From Thermoproteota archaeon (GTDB taxonomy: Archaea > Thermoproteota > Thermoprotei_A > Sulfolobales > Ignisphaeraceae): DNA of 64,000 nt. Below, one piece after another: positions 955 through 25,720 of the stretch. Below the pieces are notes generated by a model, which made no database searches, was not told the DNA's origin, and was given only the letters and a program-made list of their open reading frames with translations. The DNA is taken from NCBI GenBank assembly GCA_030550585.1, contig JAUQPB010000001.1:248001-312000 (forward strand), given 5' to 3'. Positions within the stretch are counted from its first letter, which is position 1; each line of letters begins with the position of its first letter. The position numbers were made by a program, and so were the translations under genes.

Positions 955-1116
955 ATGCCCGTTATGGCTCGCACCAGGATTGGTAGGTATTATAGGACGA
1001 CTATTCCCAGGGAGGTCCGCAAGCTACTGGAACTAAGGGAGAACGACGAGGTCGAGTGGGTCTTTGAGAACGGAGTAGTCTACGTTAGAAAAGCAGGGGG
1101 TGAACAACATGGTTAG
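955..1116 (+). CDS. AbrB/MazE-type DNA-binding protein (53 aa)
   Basis: A short swapped-hairpin AbrB domain: residues 7-45 contain the family pattern TRIGRYYRTTIPREVRKLL followed by LRENDEVEWVFENG and a final VVYVR strand. The ATG at 955 follows a TATA box by ~37 bases. The stop overlaps the next gene's start. These proteins bind DNA as dimers, usually as autoregulators or antitoxins. As first gene of an operon running through a zinc ribbon, a methyltransferase-nuclease and BrxL, it is most likely the operon's own repressor. The family call is firm; the role is inferred. Confidence 0.8.
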   Translation: MPVMARTRIGRYYRTTIPREVRKLLELRENDEVEWVFENGVVYVRKAGGEQHG

Positions 1117-1312
1117 ATGTCCGTTCTGCGGATTTGAATCGAGCCTGGAGGATTTCAAGAAGCTAAGAGAACCCTGGAGATTCAGGTTCTACGAGGTTAA
1201 AATGCTGGAGTGTCCTAAGTGTAAAGGTGTGTTCAACTACTACGAGGGTTTTTCACCAAGAGGTAAGCGTTCCTCGTTCATGATTAAAATGAGACCGCGG
1301 GCTAGAGCATGA
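1109..1312 (+). CDS. Small zinc-ribbon protein (67 aa)
   Basis: Two CxxC knuckles, CPFC near the N-terminus and CPKC about 35 residues later, make a single zinc ribbon. The tail is basic and arginine-rich. I chose ATG 1109 over GTG 1100 because a GGGGGTGA ribosome-binding site at 1096-1103 precedes ATG 1109 at normal spacing and would overlap the GTG. The gene overlaps the AbrB stop by 8 bases and its stop overlaps the methyltransferase start (ATGA at 1309), so the three are translationally coupled. The function is unknown; a DNA-binding accessory of the nuclease-methyltransferase is plausible. Confidence 0.7.
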   Translation: MVRCPFCGFESSLEDFKKLREPWRFRFYEVKMLECPKCKGVFNYYEGFSPRGKRSSFMIKMRPRARA

Positions 1313-4300
1313 GTAGTAGAATTCCTGTGCCTCAAATAGATATAGATGATGTAGTGAACTGCTTTAAGCAGAGTGTTAGAACAGCTAGAAATGAGGAGGA
1401 GGTTAGAGCAAGGGTTTCAGTAAGGTGCATTGAGGAGAAGATACTGAAGCCCCTGGGTATAACCCAGTACGGTCACTACGAATACACCCTTGTCTCGGGT
1501 GCTAGGGTAGACGCGCTGTACGGTCACGTGATAGTTGAGTACAAGGCTCCCGGTAAGCTCTCATCAGCATCCGACATAGCTAAAGCTAAGGAGCAAGTAA
1601 TTAGATACATCACTAAGGAGGCACCCAGTAAAGCTGAGTGGGATAGGTACCTGGGAGTCATAATAAGCGATAGAATAGCCTTCGTGAGGTACTATAAGCC
1701 CCAGGATACATGGATACTCAGAGGACCCTACGAGATCACCAGGGAAAGCGTTGTTAAGCTCATAGAGGCAATCAGAGGACTAAGGAGAAAAGCTCTCAAA
1801 GTAGACCCCCTACTCACCGACTTCGGTCCTCAGTCAGTAATAGCTAGAAGAGCCGTGAACACTCTCTATAGGAAGTTGCTGAACAGTAAAAACCCTAGAG
1901 CCAGGATGCTCTTCGAGGACTGGATGAGGCTCTTCAAGCAAGCAACTGGTTACGACCCCGAGAAACTCAAAGAGCTTCGTCAACTAGCCTCGGAGTACGG
2001 CATAGTAGGTAGTGTTAATTGCGATGCTCTGATATTCGCTATTCAAACGTACTACGCCTTCATAATGAAGCTACTAGCTGCAGAAGTCGTTTACCTATAC
2101 GGTGGTGGCAGGTTCTACAAATCCTACATCGCTGAGCTAGACGACAAGTACACAAGCGGTGGAGTTGAAGCCCTAAGGGGTGCCCTAGCAGAGCTCGAGA
2201 GCGGAGGTATCTTCAAGACCTTCGGTTACGAGAACTTCCTTGAGGGAGACTACTTCTCCTGGTACCTCGGTGAGCTGGATAAGGAGCTAGCCGACGTACT
2301 AGCTGAGATCGTCAGGAGGCTAGAAGACTACGAGCCTGCAACACCACAGCTGGAACCAGAGTACGCTAGAGACCTGCTGAAGAGGCTTTACCAAAACATT
2401 GTTCCCAGAGACATAAGACACAAGCTGGGAGAGTACTACACACCAGACTGGCTGGCGGACTTCCTCCTAGACGAGGCGGGACTCACACTCGAAAACCTGG
2501 AGAAAATGGGAGCTGAAGACCCGCTAAAACCATTTCAGATAAGGGTTCTCGACCCAGCCTGCGGGTCGGGGACCTTCCTCGTGAGGTACATTGCGAGGCT
2601 TAGAGCTTACGCTAGAGAGCACTACCTTGAGGATGTTCTCGTAGACTACTTGCTAAGCAACGTCGTAGGATACGACTTAAACCCTATAGCCGTGCTAACA
2701 GCTAGAACCAACTACTTGCTCATGATAGCTGACTTACCCAAGAGAGGGACAATAGAAATACCTGTGTACTTAGCCGACTCCCTCATGGTTGAGAGGAAGA
2801 CAACGCTCACCGGAAACGTCTACGTGCTCAAAACTGTTGTCGGAGAGTTCCAAGTACCCGTGAGGATCGTGGATAGTGGACTCCTACCGAGGATCCTATC
2901 GGAGGTAACCAGTACGCTGAAGAACAGGTACACACCCGATGACTTCAAGAATAGGATTAAGTACGTCTTCAAGGACATATCGAACAGCGAGCTAGAGGTA
3001 TTAACAGGGTTCTACGCTACCCTGCTAAAGCTCGAGGTAGAGGGGAAGAACGATGTCTGGGTTTCCATAATAAGAAACGCCTTCGCACCAATGCTCAAAG
3101 GCAAGTTCGACTACGTGGTGGGCAACCCACCGTGGGTGAACTGGGAAAACCTACCAGAAGAGTACAGAAAGATTAGCAAACTACTATGGTCTCAGTATGG
3201 GTTAATGGAGGCAAGAGGTAGAGGTTTAGGGAAGGTTAAAAGAGACTTAGCAATGCTGTTCCTAGCTAGGTGCTTTGACCTATACCTGAAGTCCGGTGGA
3301 AAACACGCTTTTCTAATGCCGTTCACAGTGTTCAAAACCCAAGCTGGTGCGGGATTCAGAAGGTTCCTAGCGACCAAAACAAGAGTGCATGTTGTACACG
3401 ACATGGTGTTAACAAAACCGTTTGAGGGAGCAGTGAACAGAACTTCAGCCATAGTTGTCGAAAAGATCTGCGAGCTAAAGGACATCAGCAATACAAAGAA
3501 ATGCCCTGACACGGTTAAACTGGTGGAGGAGAACAAGAAGATAAGGCACGTGGTATGGGTTAGCGAAAAACCCGTTCCAACCGATACGCCACTAGAAGAG
3601 GTCCTGAAAACCGTTGAGAGGTACAGAGCAGTAATGACGCCGTTAATGGAGAGAGATCCTTCGAGTCCCTGGATGCAGGTAACGGAAAGAGTGCTACCGC
3701 ACGTCAGGAAGCTAGTTGGCGAATCACAATACGAAGCACATGAGGGTGTGAATACGGCGTTAAACCAGGTTTACTTTGTAGAAATCAAGGAGAGACTACC
3801 CGATGGAAAGCTAGTGATAACGAATCCGCCAGAAGCTGGTCAAAAGAAGAGAATTAAGCAAGTAGAAGCCGTAGTTGAGCCAGACTACGTTTACCCGCTG
3901 ATCAGGGGACGGGATATAAAGAGGTGGTACGTGGACTTCAGGGACAGATACATCATTGTACCTCACGACCCAAAGACTGGAAAACCTCTACAGGAGCTGG
4001 TAGTAAAGACAGAATATCCACATACATACCAGTACTTCTCGATTTTCAGCAAGGAGCTAATGAACAGATCTATTCACAAGTTATGGGGCAAAGGAAACCC
4101 GTTCTACGCGGTATACGATATAGGTTCATACACTTTCGCTCCATACAAGGTCGTCTGGAAAGAAGTGTCGTCAAGGATGGGAGCTGGAGGATTCCATGTA
4201 GCGGTCATAGGGACTCTTAGTGGTAAATACCTGGGGGAAAAAGTAGTAGTGCCGGATCACACGGTTGTATTGGTACCGTTGAACGACGAGAAGGAGGCAC

Positions 4301-4974
4301 ACTACCTTAGTGCCATATTGAACTCCAGCATAGTAGCATTTGTTGGAACCTACATGCCTGTTAAGGGCTTAGAGAACCTGGCTATTCCCAAGTTCAACCC
4401 GAATAATCCTGTTCATGGAGAGCTCTACCAGCTCTCCATGAGAGCTCACAAGCTTGCCATGTGCGTTTACGCCGAAGTTGATCCTGATTATTGCGGAGAG
4501 TTCAGGAACCCGAAGGAGGAACTTGCACAAGTTGAGGAGCAGATAGATAGATTAGTTGCAGAGCTCTATGGTATGCCCGAGGACGCGCTACAGGACATCA
4601 GGAGGCTGTTAGCTATCTTAAAGGCTGAGGAGGCTCCAGAGGGAGATGAAGTAGAGGAAGAAGCATTGGAACCATCCATAGAGTTTCTCAAGACTGATGT
4701 AGCTGCTGGTCAAAGAGACTACGTAGAGTTCAACGTTGTAACTGTGGAGGAGTGTGATAAGGCGAGGATTACTCTGCAAGGCCCATGGGGCGTCAAAGAT
4801 CTCAGCTTAGGTGAGGGTAGACATAAACTAGAAGTAGTCCTTCCCGAGGGTGTCTACGAGGTTAAGTACACGTTTATCTGCGGAGAGCACAGTTACGAGG
4901 GCTCATTCAAGGTTACATCCTCTAAGTCTCTACCAACAGGTCCTAAGAGGCCTAGCACGCTGAAGCTCGGGTAG
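1309..4974 (+). CDS. Type IIG / PglX-like fused nuclease and N6-adenine DNA methyltransferase (1221 aa)
   Basis: Residues ~20-110 resemble a PD-(D/E)xK nuclease, with D68 (in RVDALYG) and E77-Y-K79 as the catalytic set. A helical region follows, then the GEYYTPDWLADF approach motif of Eco57I-like enzymes, SAM-binding motif I (DPACGSGTF, from residue 415) and catalytic motif IV (NPPW, from residue 606), which mark an N6-adenine methyltransferase. The region to ~1100 looks like a TaqI-type target-recognition part. The last ~95 residues form an extra beta-rich, Ig-like domain that is not usual in the family. The gene overlaps the zinc-ribbon stop and sits 4 bases before brxL. It could act as a stand-alone type IIG restriction enzyme or, given its BrxL partner, as the methylating and sensing part of a BREX-like system. 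No frameshift is visible. Confidence 0.85.
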   Translation: MSSRIPVPQIDIDDVVNCFKQSVRTARNEEEVRARVSVRCIEEKILKPLGITQYGHYEYTLVSGARVDALYGHVIVEYKAPGKLSSASDIAKAKEQVIRYITKEAPSKAEWDRYLGVIISDRIAFVRYYKPQDTWILRGPYEITRESVVKLIEAIRGLRRKALKVDPLLTDFGPQSVIARRAVNTLYRKLLNSKNPRARMLFEDWMRLFKQATGYDPEKLKELRQLASEYGIVGSVNCDALIFAIQTYYAFIMKLLAAEVVYLYGGGRFYKSYIAELDDKYTSGGVEALRGALAELESGGIFKTFGYENFLEGDYFSWYLGELDKELADVLAEIVRRLEDYEPATPQLEPEYARDLLKRLYQNIVPRDIRHKLGEYYTPDWLADFLLDEAGLTLENLEKMGAEDPLKPFQIRVLDPACGSGTFLVRYIARLRAYAREHYLEDVLVDYLLSNVVGYDLNPIAVLTARTNYLLMIADLPKRGTIEIPVYLADSLMVERKTTLTGNVYVLKTVVGEFQVPVRIVDSGLLPRILSEVTSTLKNRYTPDDFKNRIKYVFKDISNSELEVLTGFYATLLKLEVEGKNDVWVSIIRNAFAPMLKGKFDYVVGNPPWVNWENLPEEYRKISKLLWSQYGLMEARGRGLGKVKRDLAMLFLARCFDLYLKSGGKHAFLMPFTVFKTQAGAGFRRFLATKTRVHVVHDMVLTKPFEGAVNRTSAIVVEKICELKDISNTKKCPDTVKLVEENKKIRHVVWVSEKPVPTDTPLEEVLKTVERYRAVMTPLMERDPSSPWMQVTERVLPHVRKLVGESQYEAHEGVNTALNQVYFVEIKERLPDGKLVITNPPEAGQKKRIKQVEAVVEPDYVYPLIRGRDIKRWYVDFRDRYIIVPHDPKTGKPLQELVVKTEYPHTYQYFSIFSKELMNRSIHKLWGKGNPFYAVYDIGSYTFAPYKVVWKEVSSRMGAGGFHVAVIGTLSGKYLGEKVVVPDHTVVLVPLNDEKEAHYLSAILNSSIVAFVGTYMPVKGLENLAIPKFNPNNPVHGELYQLSMRAHKLAMCVYAEVDPDYCGEFRNPKEELAQVEEQIDRLVAELYGMPEDALQDIRRLLAILKAEEAPEGDEVEEEALEPSIEFLKTDVAAGQRDYVEFNVVTVEECDKARITLQGPWGVKDLSLGEGRHKLEVVLPEGVYEVKYTFICGEHSYEGSFKVTSSKSLPTGPKRPSTLKLG

Positions 4975-4978
4975 CCTT

Positions 4979-6412
4979 ATGAGCGACTTGTTCGCGAAGA
5001 TTAGGAGGGTTTTCGCGGAATACGCGGTCGACAAGAGCCTGCTTCAGGTAGCTGAAGTATCTAAGTTGCCCGGCTTCGTAGCAGAATACTTGATGACTGA
5101 GTTCTCCCAGATGTACCCAAGCGACTGGCAGGAGAGGCTGAGGGAGTTCATACGCCAGCACTACTTCGAGGCTAGCGAGAAGGAGTACGTAAAGCACCTA
5201 CTCGTCGAGAGGAGGAGGGTCTCACTAATCGATGAACTAGTGGTATGGGTAGACCTAGAGTCAGGTGAGCACAAGGGCATACTCCAGTCTATAGGGGAGC
5301 GTGACGTTAGGGTTCCAGCTGAGATAGCTAGGAGCTACCCAATGACCATGATCACGGGTATGTGGGGGCTGGTAGAGCTGGAGTACTCACCTGAGACTGC
5401 TAAGAGAGATTTAAACGGTAACTTGCTCGAGAACCCTGTAGTTGTTACGGATTTTAAACCTTTTCAAGCACCTGTCAGAGACCCTAAGTTACTTAGAGAC
5501 GCTAGGAGTTTCTTCACCTTTGATGAGTGGTTAGACGTGTTGATAAACACTATTGGTTACAACCATAATGTCTACCGAGATACGAGGAGGAAGCTGGTGC
5601 TGTTGTCCAGGCTCCTACCAATAGTCGAGGAGAACCTCCACCTAGCTGAGTTCGGTCCTAAGGCTACGGGTAAGACCTACGTTTTCAGGAACGTGAGTAG
5701 GTACTCCAGGATTATAGTCGGGGGCACGATATCTCCAGCAGCACTATTCTACAACCTTAGGACGGGTATGCCTGGTGAGCTTGCTGTGAGAGACTGTGTG
5801 GTGTTCGACGAGATATCTAAGGTCAGGTTTCCGAACCCGGACGAAGTCGTCGCTAAACTGAAGGACTTCATGGAGAGTAGTCAGTATGAGAGGGGGAAGC
5901 AGAGAGTAACCTCCGGTGCTTCAATAGTCATGCTAGGCAACGTCGAAGTCGAGGAGAGGGAGGGGACCTACATACCGGTAGAGGACCTAACTTACCTACT
6001 GCCCAAGCCCATGAGGGACTCAGCGTTGATCGACAGAATTAGTGGTGTTATACCTGGGTGGGAGCTGCCGAAGATAGGGCGGGCAAGGTACCATCTATCA
6101 CAGGGATACGGTATCGCGTTAGACTACTTCTCCGAGGTGCTACATGAGCTAAGGAAGGAGAGCCTCTTAGGTGAGGTAGGCAAGCACGTAGAGCTCTTCG
6201 GCAACGTGACGATTAGGGACGAGAGGGCCGTGAAGAAGATTGTAAGCGCCTTCACGAAGCTCCTCTTCCCAGACCTAGAGTTCGATAAGAGAGAGCTACA
6301 AGTAGTAGTCCAATACGCAGTAGAGCTGAGGCAGAGAGTTAGAGACTGGCTACACAAGCTATCACCGGGGGAGTTCCCTAGGGAAGCACTCTCCTTTAAG
6401 CTACGTGGATAA
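4979..6412 (+). CDS. brxL: BrxL-family AAA+ protein, short form without Lon protease domain (477 aa)
   Basis: The N-terminal half matches the BrxL pattern: a helical start with PGFVAEYLM, a beta-rich middle with SIGERDVRVP and GMWGLVELEY, then RSFFTFDEWLDVL leading into the ATPase. Walker A is GPKATGKT (226-233) and Walker B is VVFDE (274-278), followed by KDFMESSQYERGK and VMLGN, all family hallmarks. Bacterial BrxL proteins are ~680 aa and end in a Lon-like domain. This one stops soon after the ATPase lid, with no room for that domain and no sign of truncation by a frameshift. BrxL is the AAA+ motor of BREX phage defence. Here it follows the methyltransferase by 4 bases in one operon. The family is firm; the defence role is inferred from family and context. 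Confidence 0.88.
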   Translation: MSDLFAKIRRVFAEYAVDKSLLQVAEVSKLPGFVAEYLMTEFSQMYPSDWQERLREFIRQHYFEASEKEYVKHLLVERRRVSLIDELVVWVDLESGEHKGILQSIGERDVRVPAEIARSYPMTMITGMWGLVELEYSPETAKRDLNGNLLENPVVVTDFKPFQAPVRDPKLLRDARSFFTFDEWLDVLINTIGYNHNVYRDTRRKLVLLSRLLPIVEENLHLAEFGPKATGKTYVFRNVSRYSRIIVGGTISPAALFYNLRTGMPGELAVRDCVVFDEISKVRFPNPDEVVAKLKDFMESSQYERGKQRVTSGASIVMLGNVEVEEREGTYIPVEDLTYLLPKPMRDSALIDRISGVIPGWELPKIGRARYHLSQGYGIALDYFSEVLHELRKESLLGEVGKHVELFGNVTIRDERAVKKIVSAFTKLLFPDLEFDKRELQVVVQYAVELRQRVRDWLHKLSPGEFPREALSFKLRG

Positions 6413-7345: not shown

Positions 7346-10300
7346 ATGAGGAGAAATTCGGTTTTAGTCTTAGTTCTGCTGACCTTAGCCTTAGGCCTAA
7401 TGGTTTCCTCCGGATCAGCTCAGCTTAGGCGATCAACGCAACTGAGTCTCACGCCAGAAAACTTCACAGCTACTTCAGGCGGTAGCCTCACGTTTACAGC
7501 CACCCTGCTTTCAGATGGTAAACCCTTAGCTGGAAAAACCATTATCTTCTCGGCTACTCTCGGAACAGTTGATCCGCCTATGGGTGTGACAGATGCCAAC
7601 GGCAAAGTTTCGTTTGTCTACACGGCTCCGCAAACACCAGTTAGGATCTATGTGAAGATCACAGCCACCTTTGCCGGTGATTTGCTATACGAAGGCAGTA
7701 GTGCGGTCGCCTCAGGAGTCGTTGAGCCTGTGCCTTCGCCAATTCTTCCGTCGATATCCCTTGTAGGAGCCTCATTCACCATTCCTGAGACGCTAAAGGA
7801 TGATGTATCCTTGTATAGGAACTCCATTCCAAGCGATATCATGAAGACGCTGCCAACTGGTTTGCCATCAGAGGCCTTCCTGCTGGCAACTAATGAAAGC
7901 CTCTACTTGGTTTTTGCTGAGCAAAGTGATAAGGGCTTAGCCAAAGTGGAGGGTTGGCTTTTGCCGACGCACATTCAGCTTGCAGGTTTAAACATAGCTG
8001 TTGTTATTGCTAAGCAGGTCACCTTTGTGAAAGAAGGTTCGCCAACAGTTCTTAGTGATATCTTAGCCAATCCAGAAGCCTACAAGTTCAAACTTGTTAA
8101 GGTCGATGCCTATAGAAGGCAGATTTCGGTGCTCTATGATCCAGATGAGCCGCCGTACATCGAGTTTCCACTAACAATTGGATACCTCTCTGAGAGGCCC
8201 ATTGAGCCATTGGTGATTGTCCGTAAGGCTTTGGAGAGAGCTAAAGAGATAACCTTCAGAATTGATGAGGGGGTTATAAGAGACCTCCTGGAGCTTAGAG
8301 AACATCAAATACTCTGGGTCTTCAACTTCGAATATGAATATTGGTATGACTCTAAAGCTGTAACTAACGGGATAGTAATTCCACTTAACCACTCAATATT
8401 CACATTACTTGAGCAGTCCATGCCAGTCTTAGGAGGGCTCCTAAAAGCTAGGGGCCCAATAATTCTCTACGATGTTAAGACAGACCTACTTTATGAAGGT
8501 GTGCAGTCTGTAGTGGAGTTGATGAAGGACAGTAAAAGGTATCTAGGTAAAGTCGTTAAGTTGACTGCAAATTGCTATGGCGGTTACATTAGCGTTCAGG
8601 AGGTTATAGAGCATAATACTCCATGCGGTGAGGACTATGTTTACGTCCCAGATGTTGGATGCGTGAACCTCGCGACTGATGTGAGGTTCGAGGGCTTCGT
8701 TGCCTGGAATAATGTGAGTGTGCCCCCGAAGCGTGATGAACTCCTACTCGCGGTCGGCGTCTCAAGCTTCCATCAGGATGAGCAATTCGTTAAGGCCTCT
8801 GGAATCTTCGAACTGGTAGGCAAAGTGGTCTCAACTAAAGAGGTGAGCGATTCTCTACCCGAAGGCATTGCCCTCATAATTTATAGTGCTAGAAAGGTTG
8901 GTGAGATAGACTTTGAGAAGTTAGCTGCCCAAGTTAAGGACGAGGTTAAAAGGCAGGTAGGAGAGCTTCTCTGGAACCTCCAAGACATTTACCCGTATCA
9001 GAGGCCACCTGAAATACCATTCAAGGTTCCAAGGAAGGTCTTCTGGCCGAAGGCCCCAATCTCCGTTACCACGCCCAAGGAGCTCCCCGAAATAGTTATT
9101 GAGAGGAACTTCACGGTTATAATTGATGTGGCTGATGCGCCCATCAACCTAAACATAAGCAACTCCATCATCTCAAACATATCCATAAGGCTAAGGGAGA
9201 TTGTCAGGAACGTCACAATATACTTCGAGAAGCTCATTGAGAAGCCTCCAGAGGTGCCTAGCCCGCCGGGATTAGTTTACGCCTATCATAAGATCGATGT
9301 AAATATCCCTGAAGCCTCCATCGAGAAGGCAGATATAACGTTCTGGGTTATGAAGGAGTGGCTGGCAATCCATGGAGCCACCAAAGATGATGTAGTTATG
9401 CTCAGATACCATGGCGGAGAATGGTTAAGACTCCCAACAAAGGCTATAGGTGAAAACGTAACACACTTCGAGTTCACGGCCGAGACTCCCAGCTTCTCGA
9501 TATTCGCAATAGCGATAACAGCACCTGTTAGAGTTATGGAGACCGGTGTTGAGGGCTACGTCTTTGACAACGCTACCGGAAAACCGATTAAGGGCGTTAG
9601 AATAATAGCGTTGTCAAAGGTTATTACGTCAGTGCGTACTGAGGCTACAACGGACGATATGGGTCACTACTCGCTTTCCCTGACACCCGGGAGCTACGTT
9701 TTAGTTGTTTTAGCTAACGGTTATGCTGATGTATCGGCGGAGGTTTCGCTGGCGCTTGGAGAGGTTAAGCGGGTGGACTTTAAGCTTGAAAAGGCTCTGG
9801 CGGAATTCTCTGAGGATTGGTACGGCGTGAAGTTCGAGATCGCCATCTTAGGCAACCTCACATGGAAGATTGGAGACAATACATCGATTAAAGCCTCGGT
9901 GACAGTAGGTGATATGGGCGGAAACCAGAAAATTGAGTTTAGGCAGCTCACTCTAGAATTAGCGGAAGCAAATGTGAAAGTTTCTGTTCCAATAAACCTC
10001 GCTACATCAATCGGTGGGACTGTCTTCAGCAAACCCATCAGCATCGGGGTGCTAGATGGATTCGGCCTCCACGCTCCCGGAGAGACCAAAGGATACTCCC
10101 TCCAAGTTATCTTGGAGGGTTCTGTCATCGATAAATTTGGTATCGAATGGCCAGGATCAACGTTTAAAACTGTTAGCGTTAGCATCTACGCACCTGAGTC
10201 TCCGGTCTCGGTCGAGTTCACGGCCCCTTCAAAGGTTAAGATAGGCGACGAGTTTGATGTAAAGTTTAGGTTCAGGAATGAGGGGAAGCATCCTATATCA

Positions 10301-11197
10301 GACTTGAGGGTCTCGCTTTCATTGCCCTTCGGCACCTCTGCCATCGGGCCAATCGAAACAACGGTAAAAGTTGTTAATCCGAAGGAGGCTGCGGAGGCGG
10401 TGTTTAGGCTCAGAGCTGAAAATGCCACAACTAGCTTAATAACAGTAACGTATTCTTACAGGACCCTCTGGGGGTATGTTGTGTTAGAGCCCTTGAAGAC
10501 ATTGGGGTCGATAACTATAACTAAGATCCCAGTGAGCCTAACGATCTCTGCTGAGCCTAGGGAGGTTACTGTTGGTGAAGAGGTTGTGGTTAAAGGGTCA
10601 ATAAGCCCGGCCATGAGCAAGACTATAGAACTGGTCATTAAGAGGCCTGATGGAACAACAGATACGCAGACAACTACGTCTACACCCGATGGAAGCTTCG
10701 GCTTTAGGATTAAGCTCGATAAGGAGGGTGAATGGAGCTTTACAGCGAGGTTTGCGGAAGATTTAACCCATGAGGAAGCAGTGAGCCAGTCTGTAAACAT
10801 CGTCGCATTACCCGTCAAGACAGTACTTACGATTCAGGCGCCGAGCATGGTTAGCGTTGGTGAGGAGTTCGTGGTAAGTGGTAAGTTGACTAGGCTTGAC
10901 ACAGGTGCTGGACTAGCCGGTAAGAAGGTCGAGCTCTACATCAACGGCTCAAAGACCTCTGAGACGACTTCGAATGCTACTGGTGACTACAGCTTCAAAA
11001 TAAGGATAGAAAGTATAGGTAGGTACGCATTGAGGGTGTACTTCTCGGGCGATGGCTTCCTACCAAGCGAGGTAGTAACAACAGTCGTAGTAGAAGCTCC
11101 TAAAGCATCAGCAATAACCTGGAGTGTAGTAGTGATCGTGTTAGGAGTTCTGGGCTTGGGCATAGGCTTATACATGTATAGGAGGAGACGTTTGTGA
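7346..11197 (+). CDS. Large secreted cell-surface protein with Ig-like and PGF-pre-PGF domains (1283 aa)
   Basis: It has an N-terminal signal peptide (~1-26), an invasin-type Ig-like domain (~30-125), a long central part, a PGF-pre-PGF type domain (~650-725, with ITFWVMKEWL and a run of FSIFAIA), a carboxypeptidase-regulatory-like beta domain (~730-800, VEGYVFDNATGKPIKG), then two or three further Ig-like or CARDB-like domains (~940-1250). It ends in one membrane helix and a basic tail (YRRRRL). It is therefore exported and anchored outward: S-layer-associated, adhesive or extracellular assembly function. AAGGGG at 7335-7340 sits 5 bases before the ATG. A tiny hydrophobic ORF overlaps its stop. 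The exact role is unknown. Confidence 0.8.
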   Translation: MRRNSVLVLVLLTLALGLMVSSGSAQLRRSTQLSLTPENFTATSGGSLTFTATLLSDGKPLAGKTIIFSATLGTVDPPMGVTDANGKVSFVYTAPQTPVRIYVKITATFAGDLLYEGSSAVASGVVEPVPSPILPSISLVGASFTIPETLKDDVSLYRNSIPSDIMKTLPTGLPSEAFLLATNESLYLVFAEQSDKGLAKVEGWLLPTHIQLAGLNIAVVIAKQVTFVKEGSPTVLSDILANPEAYKFKLVKVDAYRRQISVLYDPDEPPYIEFPLTIGYLSERPIEPLVIVRKALERAKEITFRIDEGVIRDLLELREHQILWVFNFEYEYWYDSKAVTNGIVIPLNHSIFTLLEQSMPVLGGLLKARGPIILYDVKTDLLYEGVQSVVELMKDSKRYLGKVVKLTANCYGGYISVQEVIEHNTPCGEDYVYVPDVGCVNLATDVRFEGFVAWNNVSVPPKRDELLLAVGVSSFHQDEQFVKASGIFELVGKVVSTKEVSDSLPEGIALIIYSARKVGEIDFEKLAAQVKDEVKRQVGELLWNLQDIYPYQRPPEIPFKVPRKVFWPKAPISVTTPKELPEIVIERNFTVIIDVADAPINLNISNSIISNISIRLREIVRNVTIYFEKLIEKPPEVPSPPGLVYAYHKIDVNIPEASIEKADITFWVMKEWLAIHGATKDDVVMLRYHGGEWLRLPTKAIGENVTHFEFTAETPSFSIFAIAITAPVRVMETGVEGYVFDNATGKPIKGVRIIALSKVITSVRTEATTDDMGHYSLSLTPGSYVLVVLANGYADVSAEVSLALGEVKRVDFKLEKALAEFSEDWYGVKFEIAILGNLTWKIGDNTSIKASVTVGDMGGNQKIEFRQLTLELAEANVKVSVPINLATSIGGTVFSKPISIGVLDGFGLHAPGETKGYSLQVILEGSVIDKFGIEWPGSTFKTVSVSIYAPESPVSVEFTAPSKVKIGDEFDVKFRFRNEGKHPISDLRVSLSLPFGTSAIGPIETTVKVVNPKEAAEAVFRLRAENATTSLITVTYSYRTLWGYVVLEPLKTLGSITITKIPVSLTISAEPREVTVGEEVVVKGSISPAMSKTIELVIKRPDGTTDTQTTTSTPDGSFGFRIKLDKEGEWSFTARFAEDLTHEEAVSQSVNIVALPVKTVLTIQAPSMVSVGEEFVVSGKLTRLDTGAGLAGKKVELYINGSKTSETTSNATGDYSFKIRIESIGRYALRVYFSGDGFLPSEVVTTVVVEAPKASAITWSVVVIVLGVLGLGIGLYMYRRRRL

Positions 11198-11924: not shown

Positions 11925-11945
11925 AGATCTACGGGCATCCCAGGA

Positions 11946-11990
11946 CTCCGGAGCCGGTGGACCCGGGTTCAAATCCCGGCGGGCCCGCCA
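11946..11990 (+). other. Attachment-site scar: 3' half of a tRNA-Arg(CCG) gene
   Basis: This reads exactly as a tRNA from anticodon-loop position 32 to CCA: loop CTCCGGA with anticodon CCG, stem GCCGG, variable TGGAC, a perfect T arm (CCGGG-TTCAAAT-CCCGG), acceptor strand CGGGCCC, G73 and CCA. The 5' anticodon stem, D arm and 5' acceptor (GGGCCCG) are absent here, and I found no matching 5' half within ~700 bases. SSV-type integrases recombine into tRNA 3' halves and leave just such a copy at the far end of the element. Orientation predicts the intact tRNA-Arg(CCG) gene to the left, outside the window, with the element lying between. The 3' half of a split tRNA is a less likely alternative. 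Confidence 0.75.
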
Positions 11991-25386: not shown

Positions 25387-25720
25387 CCACATTAGATTCC
25401 TGCATGTAGCCCCCTAAAAACTTTTCTATCATTGCTATGCTAGAATTAATTAGTACGCTATTCAAGAAGGTGTCTTGGTTGGAGGTAGGCTCTGGCATTG
25501 TTGTAACACAATAGTGGTTCGCGCATGGGTTAGTGAAAACTGTGGGGTTTAGACACACTTTAAAATTGTGGATGGTTATAATGGATTGAGAGCCTCTGCT
25601 TCTAACCTTTGTATTGGATTTGGCTTGCAAGTTGCCTGTATCTATAGAAGAATATATAGGTAGTGCTGTAGGCGATGTTGATAAGTGTTTCCCTGTCAGT
25701 TTTTTAGCTGTGTAGGGCAA
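25367..25720 (-). CDS. Doubtful 117-aa reading frame before the secreted protein gene
   Basis: A TTG-started open frame of 117 codons ends inside the first codons of the secreted protein gene (overlap 25367-25386), in the same direction, which would fit coupling. Its content is polar, with many S/T/N and four C, and shows no domain. It fills an otherwise empty gap before the divergent NreA gene, whose promoter must also lie here. Chance is quite possible. Confidence 0.25.
   Translation of the reverse strand: MPYTAKKLTGKHLSTSPTALPIYSSIDTGNLQAKSNTKVRSRGSQSIITIHNFKVCLNPTVFTNPCANHYCVTTMPEPTSNQDTFLNSVLINSSIAMIEKFLGGYMQESNVDESNEM

Follow-up and report, generated by a model that had tools for sequence, protein, structure and literature searches.

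Positions 955 to 6,412 of a 64,000-nucleotide stretch of the genome of a Thermoproteota archaeon of the family Ignisphaeraceae hold a compact four-gene operon. The whole stretch, here called the window, covers positions 248001 to 312000 of contig C4 in the 1.76-Mb host genome (G000). The operon encodes an AbrB-type DNA-binding protein, a small Zn-ribbon protein, a type IIG restriction-methyltransferase (IIG), and BrxL, an AAA+ ATPase so far described only within the larger virus-defence systems known as bacteriophage exclusion (BREX). All four genes are intact, and they are translationally coupled because start and stop codons overlap or stand 4 nt apart: the AbrB stop overlaps the Zn-ribbon start, the Zn-ribbon stop overlaps the IIG ATG, and the IIG stop at 4974 is followed by the BrxL ATG at 4979. 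A TATA-like sequence, TTTTTTATATTC, precedes AbrB by about 40 nt. An initial annotation of this DNA had recognized the four coupled genes at these positions and read them as an AbrB-led, minimal BREX-like module. The genes and their coupling are as it described. Our main new finding, absent from that annotation, is an extension of about 110 residues at the C-terminus of IIG that ties the enzyme to BrxL.

No fewer than 22 intact, non-redundant loci carry the IIG-BrxL pair, and the pair is hence not a product of chance. BrxL is present in 30 of 398 Thermoproteota genomes; IIG lies directly upstream of it in 15 of the 30, so that the neighbours do recur across Thermoproteota, a point that the initial annotation had suggested checking. 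In one of the 30, BrxL lies inside type 1 BREX; in seven, it follows a membrane protein of about 280 amino acids, and one of these seven also carries IIG. Scanning GTDB genomes extends the list to Methanodesulfokora, Caldarchaeum, Bathyarchaeota, the ANME-1-related Methanophagales and Alkanophaga, and two Thermotogaceae metagenome-assembled genomes, with the proviso that taxonomic assignments of such assemblies may be wrong. The full order of AbrB, Zn-ribbon, IIG, and BrxL is found again in loci L038 and L039, from another family, with a related AbrB gene at the equivalent place. AbrB is indeed present in the window, but it accompanies the pair in 3 loci only; it is an occasional accessory, and the conserved core is two genes rather than an AbrB-led module. 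Zn-ribbon homologues stand immediately 5' of IIG in L007, L038, L039, and L086, and are diverged or nearby in L043, L066 (Pyrobaculum oguniense), and L048. AbrB is the likely regulator of the operon, and both small proteins are likely regulatory accessories. The host itself carries a second copy on contig C6, with Zn-ribbon, IIG (66% identical), and BrxL (59%). On viral contigs, there are 17 distant relatives of IIG, none of them with BrxL.

The extension is found in all 22 intact BrxL-linked IIGs and in 0 of 48 BrxL-free IIGs (naive Fisher p 1e-18), where the 48 are those with enough sequence and the broken BrxL-linked locus L065 is left out. A tree built from the enzyme core (residues 10-740) requires 9 changes in the presence of BrxL, and well-supported branches force no fewer than 7 of them; the extension tracks BrxL in each of the 7 independent contrasts (p about 0.016, sign test). 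Among previously unused genomes, BrxL followed within about 1.5 kb in 4 of 4 IIGs with the full extension and in 0 of 10 without it. A profile of the extension matched no other open reading frame (ORF) in the IIG loci. Mere physical linkage is argued against because the extension persists where other genes part IIG and BrxL (L073, L075, L080, and L094). We also observed that in L075, L084, and L121, IIG is divided among two or three successive ORFs that keep the usual order, with the extension still adjoining BrxL; these may be assembly errors or real splits. The Methanophagales locus (L080:8001-17400) is a composite operon of an extended IIG, a DNA methyltransferase, a 339-amino-acid protein, a BrxC/D-like ATPase, a PIN-like protein (by eye), and BrxL.

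In order, the extension is predicted to comprise a helical hairpin, an acidic linker, a sandwich, and a short tail. The sandwich is predicted to be an 8-strand Ig/FN3-like fold, with blocks mostly at a predicted local distance difference test (pLDDT) score of 85-92 and weak FN3 and Ig matches. As the candidate docking domain, the extension probably binds BrxL. A tail pattern of basic residues followed by phi-[DE]-x-L-[LF] occurs in 10 of 22 IIGs, 6 of 7 membrane partners, and a single RadA-like partner; other matches among 951 ORFs longer than 200 amino acids number 4. The pattern was composed after the tails were seen, and gives a hint of a short motif shared by BrxL partners. The membrane partners belong to a second BrxL pairing (L052, L056, L057, L058, L059, L060, and L063; genus code g72), in which an apparently membrane-bound protein of about 250-295 amino acids lies directly upstream of a short BrxL. 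Most of these proteins end in NRIERLL-like residues, the one member scanned matched no Pfam family, and their BrxLs form a clade of their own.

A self-sufficient IIG might simply sit beside an independently working BrxL, such as a replication or defence ring, the two being neighbours only through the clustering of defence genes. Relatives of the enzyme do occur without BrxL in many genomes (nanoarchaea, ANME-1, and many bacteria), and BrxL has other partners, namely the membrane protein and a DUF499 protein. However, gene order and strand are constant, the genes overlap, and IIG and BrxL co-diverge (Mantel r 0.76, p 1e-4). IIG-linked BrxLs fall into one 22-row clade (Shimodaira-Hasegawa-like approximate likelihood ratio test 95) with a single other row inside, separate from the BrxLs of type 1 BREX and from those linked to the membrane protein. 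With the extension, too, strictly tied to BrxL, we consider independent neighbours unlikely.

Table 1. Features of the operon and of the element that carries it (window positions).
Feature	Position	Strand	Evidence
AbrB/SpoVT-MazE-type DNA-binding protein, 53 amino acids	955..1116	+	PF04014 39 bits; TIGR01439 31 bits
Small Zn-ribbon protein, 70 amino acids from GTG1100 (ATG1109 possible)	1100..1312	+	two CxxC pairs
Type IIG restriction-methyltransferase, 1221 amino acids	1309..4974	+	PDLC03630 1228 bits; Eco57I PF07669 61 bits
N-terminal PD-(D/E)xK-type nuclease region (putative)	1309..1923	+	D68, E77, K79; AlphaFold2 pLDDT 90
N6-adenine methyltransferase core	2506..3468	+	PF02384/PF07669 matches; invariant motifs DPACGSGTF, NPPW
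Target-recognition region	3886..4428	+	swapped between close relatives; weak TaqI_C match
C-terminal extension: Ig/FN3-like beta-sandwich and short basic/hydrophobic tail	4660..4971	+	22/22 BrxL-linked versus 0/48 BrxL-free IIGs
Short BrxL, 477 amino acids: BrxL_N and AAA+ ATPase, without C-terminal Lon-like domain	4979..6412	+	PF20442, PF13337, TIGR02688
tRNA-Arg 3' end copy, 46 bp; right end of element	11943..11988	+	intact tRNA-Arg 5.1 kb left of window

The enzyme unites nuclease, N6-methyltransferase, and target recognition in a single chain, as type IIG enzymes do. The PADLOC model PDLC03630 (REase_MTase_IIG) matches residues 16-1105, which is the whole core, and the Pfam matches are Eco57I/N6_Mtase. 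Residues D68, E77, and K79 of the N-terminal region fit a PD-(D/E)xK-type site; the AlphaFold2 model covers the first 205 residues. Across 43 relatives, D68 and E77 are invariant and K79 is kept in 37. The fused nuclease-methyltransferase with intact catalytic motifs and no frameshift, as first annotated, thus stands, and its catalytic residues are conserved in relatives. The IIGs of L038 and L039, loci from two species, share 99% identity in the nuclease and 99% in the methyltransferase but 51% across the target-recognition region, while their BrxLs are near-identical. Exchange of the specificity domain only is characteristic of restriction systems that are sequence-specific. For the BrxL-linked subgroup, the constant partner suggests that IIG does not work alone as a single polypeptide.

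The BrxL of the window scores 500.6 bits against TIGR02688 (cut-off 329.3) and aligns with residues 7-469 of 679 of the solved BrxL 8EMC; 8EMH is matched too. Because the alignment to 8EMC ends at residue 469, the protein is without the C-terminal Lon-like domain of type 1 BrxL. Type 4 BrxL is likewise reported to be without it (PMC12839542). BrxL is an ATP-dependent ring that binds double-stranded DNA (PMC10164562); in BREX, methylation needs no BrxL, and restriction needs it variably (PMC13326643). Walker A and B, sensor 1, and the Arg are intact in the window protein, which is a BrxL-family AAA+ motor as originally named.

PglZ and BrxC define BREX. With the BREX type 1 genome G271 as positive control, the PglZ profile (PF08665) found nothing in the host genome or in most carriers and matched in G271 and control genomes; BrxC (NF033441) gave a stray 21.7 bits in the host (cut-off 400) and 908 bits in G271; and BrxB (PF08747) was absent from all carriers and present in G271. 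The BrxA profile PF08849 matched nowhere, controls included. No BREX gene lies within 20 kb to the left of the window, where such genes might have escaped the initial annotation. NCBIfam PglX models score IIG at 17-50 bits, with cut-offs of 400-900. Since the host is without PglZ, BrxC, and BrxB and the enzyme falls far below every PglX cut-off, IIG and BrxL are, by these profile searches, a compact system and not BREX. The earlier description of a compact unit without other BREX genes therefore survives; the labels "PglX-like" and "minimal BREX" do not, as the enzyme is a member of a type IIG family, it has its own conserved PD-(D/E)xK-type site, and the defining genes are absent. A degenerate or minimal BREX, in which a PglX would have become IIG by acquiring a nuclease while the other genes were lost, could draw on the shared BrxL and on a distant PglX-likeness of the methyltransferase region (the same 17-50 bits and a weak PDB match to BrxX). 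Over its full length, however, IIG matches a type IIG family whose members are mostly BrxL-free, PglZ, BrxC, and BrxB are missing, and the BrxLs stand apart from the type 1 clade, so that this origin is very improbable. A BREX-related setting is seen elsewhere, at L047:8632-17227, where BrxL lies downstream of large DUF1156 methyltransferase- and DUF499 ATPase-like proteins (by eye).

We favour, with a probability of roughly 0.66, the reading that the pair is a two-component restriction-modification system assisted by ATP, with the C-terminus of IIG serving to recruit BrxL. IIG would recognize a particular DNA site by means of its swappable target-recognition domain and methylate adenine at host sites, and the N-terminal nuclease would cut or mark unmethylated DNA. 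The Ig-like domain and tail may dock the short BrxL, which would assemble as an AAA+ ring on double-stranded DNA at or near unmodified sites. The ring could then block replication of the invader, or relay a signal from one site to another and thereby trigger the nuclease.

Methylation by type IIG enzymes is typically confined to one strand, and replication then gives rise to unmodified daughters. BrxL could accordingly be a safety or licensing partner that restrains the IIG nuclease on newly replicated, half-methylated host sites instead of attacking invaders, a role in keeping with its likeness to MCM replicative rings (PMC10164562) and with the regulatory role raised for BrxL in Salmonella BREX (PMC11974810). 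Family relatives manage without BrxL, however, so restraint is not generally needed, and we hold this alternative to be improbable as well.

Several observations weigh against recruitment of BrxL into an active restriction system. The relatives were gathered by scans with two short peptide patterns and are a biased sample. Comparison of the nuclease domain with PDB folds gave no significant match, the best including the Shedu and NucC nucleases, and K79 is replaced by E in 6 of the 43 relatives, two of them BrxL-linked. The BrxL of the second copy (L007:7467-8891) has an odd Walker A, GPRQTGKM, in place of GKT/S, and is possibly impaired. The linkage of extension and BrxL bears on functional coupling, not on physical binding. 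Homology of the extension to the C-terminal beta-sandwich of type 1 PglZ was considered and rejected (HHalign probability 0.1); the analogy of architecture is kept.

A broader proposal is tentative, and we think it rather less likely to be right than wrong. IIG-BrxL would be a distinct, widespread class of archaeal defence in which MCM-like BrxL is recruited via a C-terminal Ig-like domain and tail; type 1 BREX would follow the same principle through PglZ, with the docking domain on the gene directly upstream of brxL; and a short C-terminal peptide with the tail pattern given above would mark BrxL clients generally, including the membrane protein of one archaeal genus (RIERLL ends).

The operon lies on an element of about 17.1 kb integrated at tRNA-Arg, with an integrase just left of the window; the tRNA scar inferred by the initial annotation is the 46-bp copy in Table 1. 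Synteny with the 99%-identical sister genome G314 breaks inside tRNA-Arg(CCG) at C4:242872, beside an archaeal integrase (PF16795). In G314, the window copy is absent and the C6 copy is unchanged. The site is a hotspot with further accessory DNA, because full synteny returns only at window position 25652. On the same element, positions 7346-11197 encode a 1283-amino-acid surface protein that bears Ig-like repeats and is anchored in the membrane at its C-terminus. Beside the second copy (L007:996-7165) lie a PIWI/pAgo-like protein (PADLOC PprPIWI/pAgo, E 2e-8) and another defence-island neighbour with a C-terminal PLD/DrmC-like nuclease domain. EVE-like proteins stand beside several IIG-BrxL loci, upstream of IIG in L084, L085, and L075 and at L007:3385-3855; of these, only the L054/L084 member has a confirmed PF01878 (EVE) match. 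The literature connects EVE domains with the reading of modified bases.

BrxL has been stated to be specific to BREX types 1 and 4 (PMC12839542). Our results challenge that statement, as the commonest BrxL partner found in Thermoproteota is a restriction enzyme. We searched the open literature on BrxL with type IIG, HerA, and archaea, a search that did not cover subscription papers and preprints outside PMC, and met no description of an IIG-BrxL pair. The many components of BREX complexes have been one obstacle to working out what BrxL does there. In a thermophilic two-gene system, BrxL stands with a single sequence-specific enzyme whose likely recruiting domain is identified, making recruitment and function testable with two purified proteins.

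Among known systems, BREX types 1 and 4 likewise combine BrxL with a methyltransferase; types 2 and 3 do not belong to the types that contain BrxL. The IIG-BrxL system differs from types 1 and 4 in having no PglZ, BrxC, or BrxB and an enzyme that is not PglX; in type 4, BrxL is reported to be short, as in the window. In type 1, BrxL lies directly downstream of a PglZ that ends in an Ig-like beta-sandwich, which the PglZ of types 2 and 3 is without (PMC12839542); here, it lies downstream of an IIG with such a domain. With type IIG enzymes (Eco57I/MmeI-like; PDLC03630), the enzyme shares the one-chain design, a full-length profile match, and target-domain swapping; it departs from them in its coupling to a BrxL ATPase gene and in its Ig-like extension, missing in BrxL-free relatives. 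CglI, an ATP-dependent, type II-like system with a separate NTPase subunit (PMC5737866), is likewise a restriction enzyme that acts together with a distinct ATPase. The IIG family treated here also stands next to an ATPase in bacterial operons of IIG, a protein of about 380 amino acids (NurA-like by eye), a HerA-like ATPase of about 600, and a DNA methyltransferase of about 410, conserved in L105, L106, L113, L118, L129, L132, and L139, with families scanned in L105 only and the other loci judged by gene lengths. In these operons (compared in L105, L106, L113, L118, and L129), a HerA-type ATPase, expected to form a hexameric motor, takes the place of BrxL, and IIG is without the extension.

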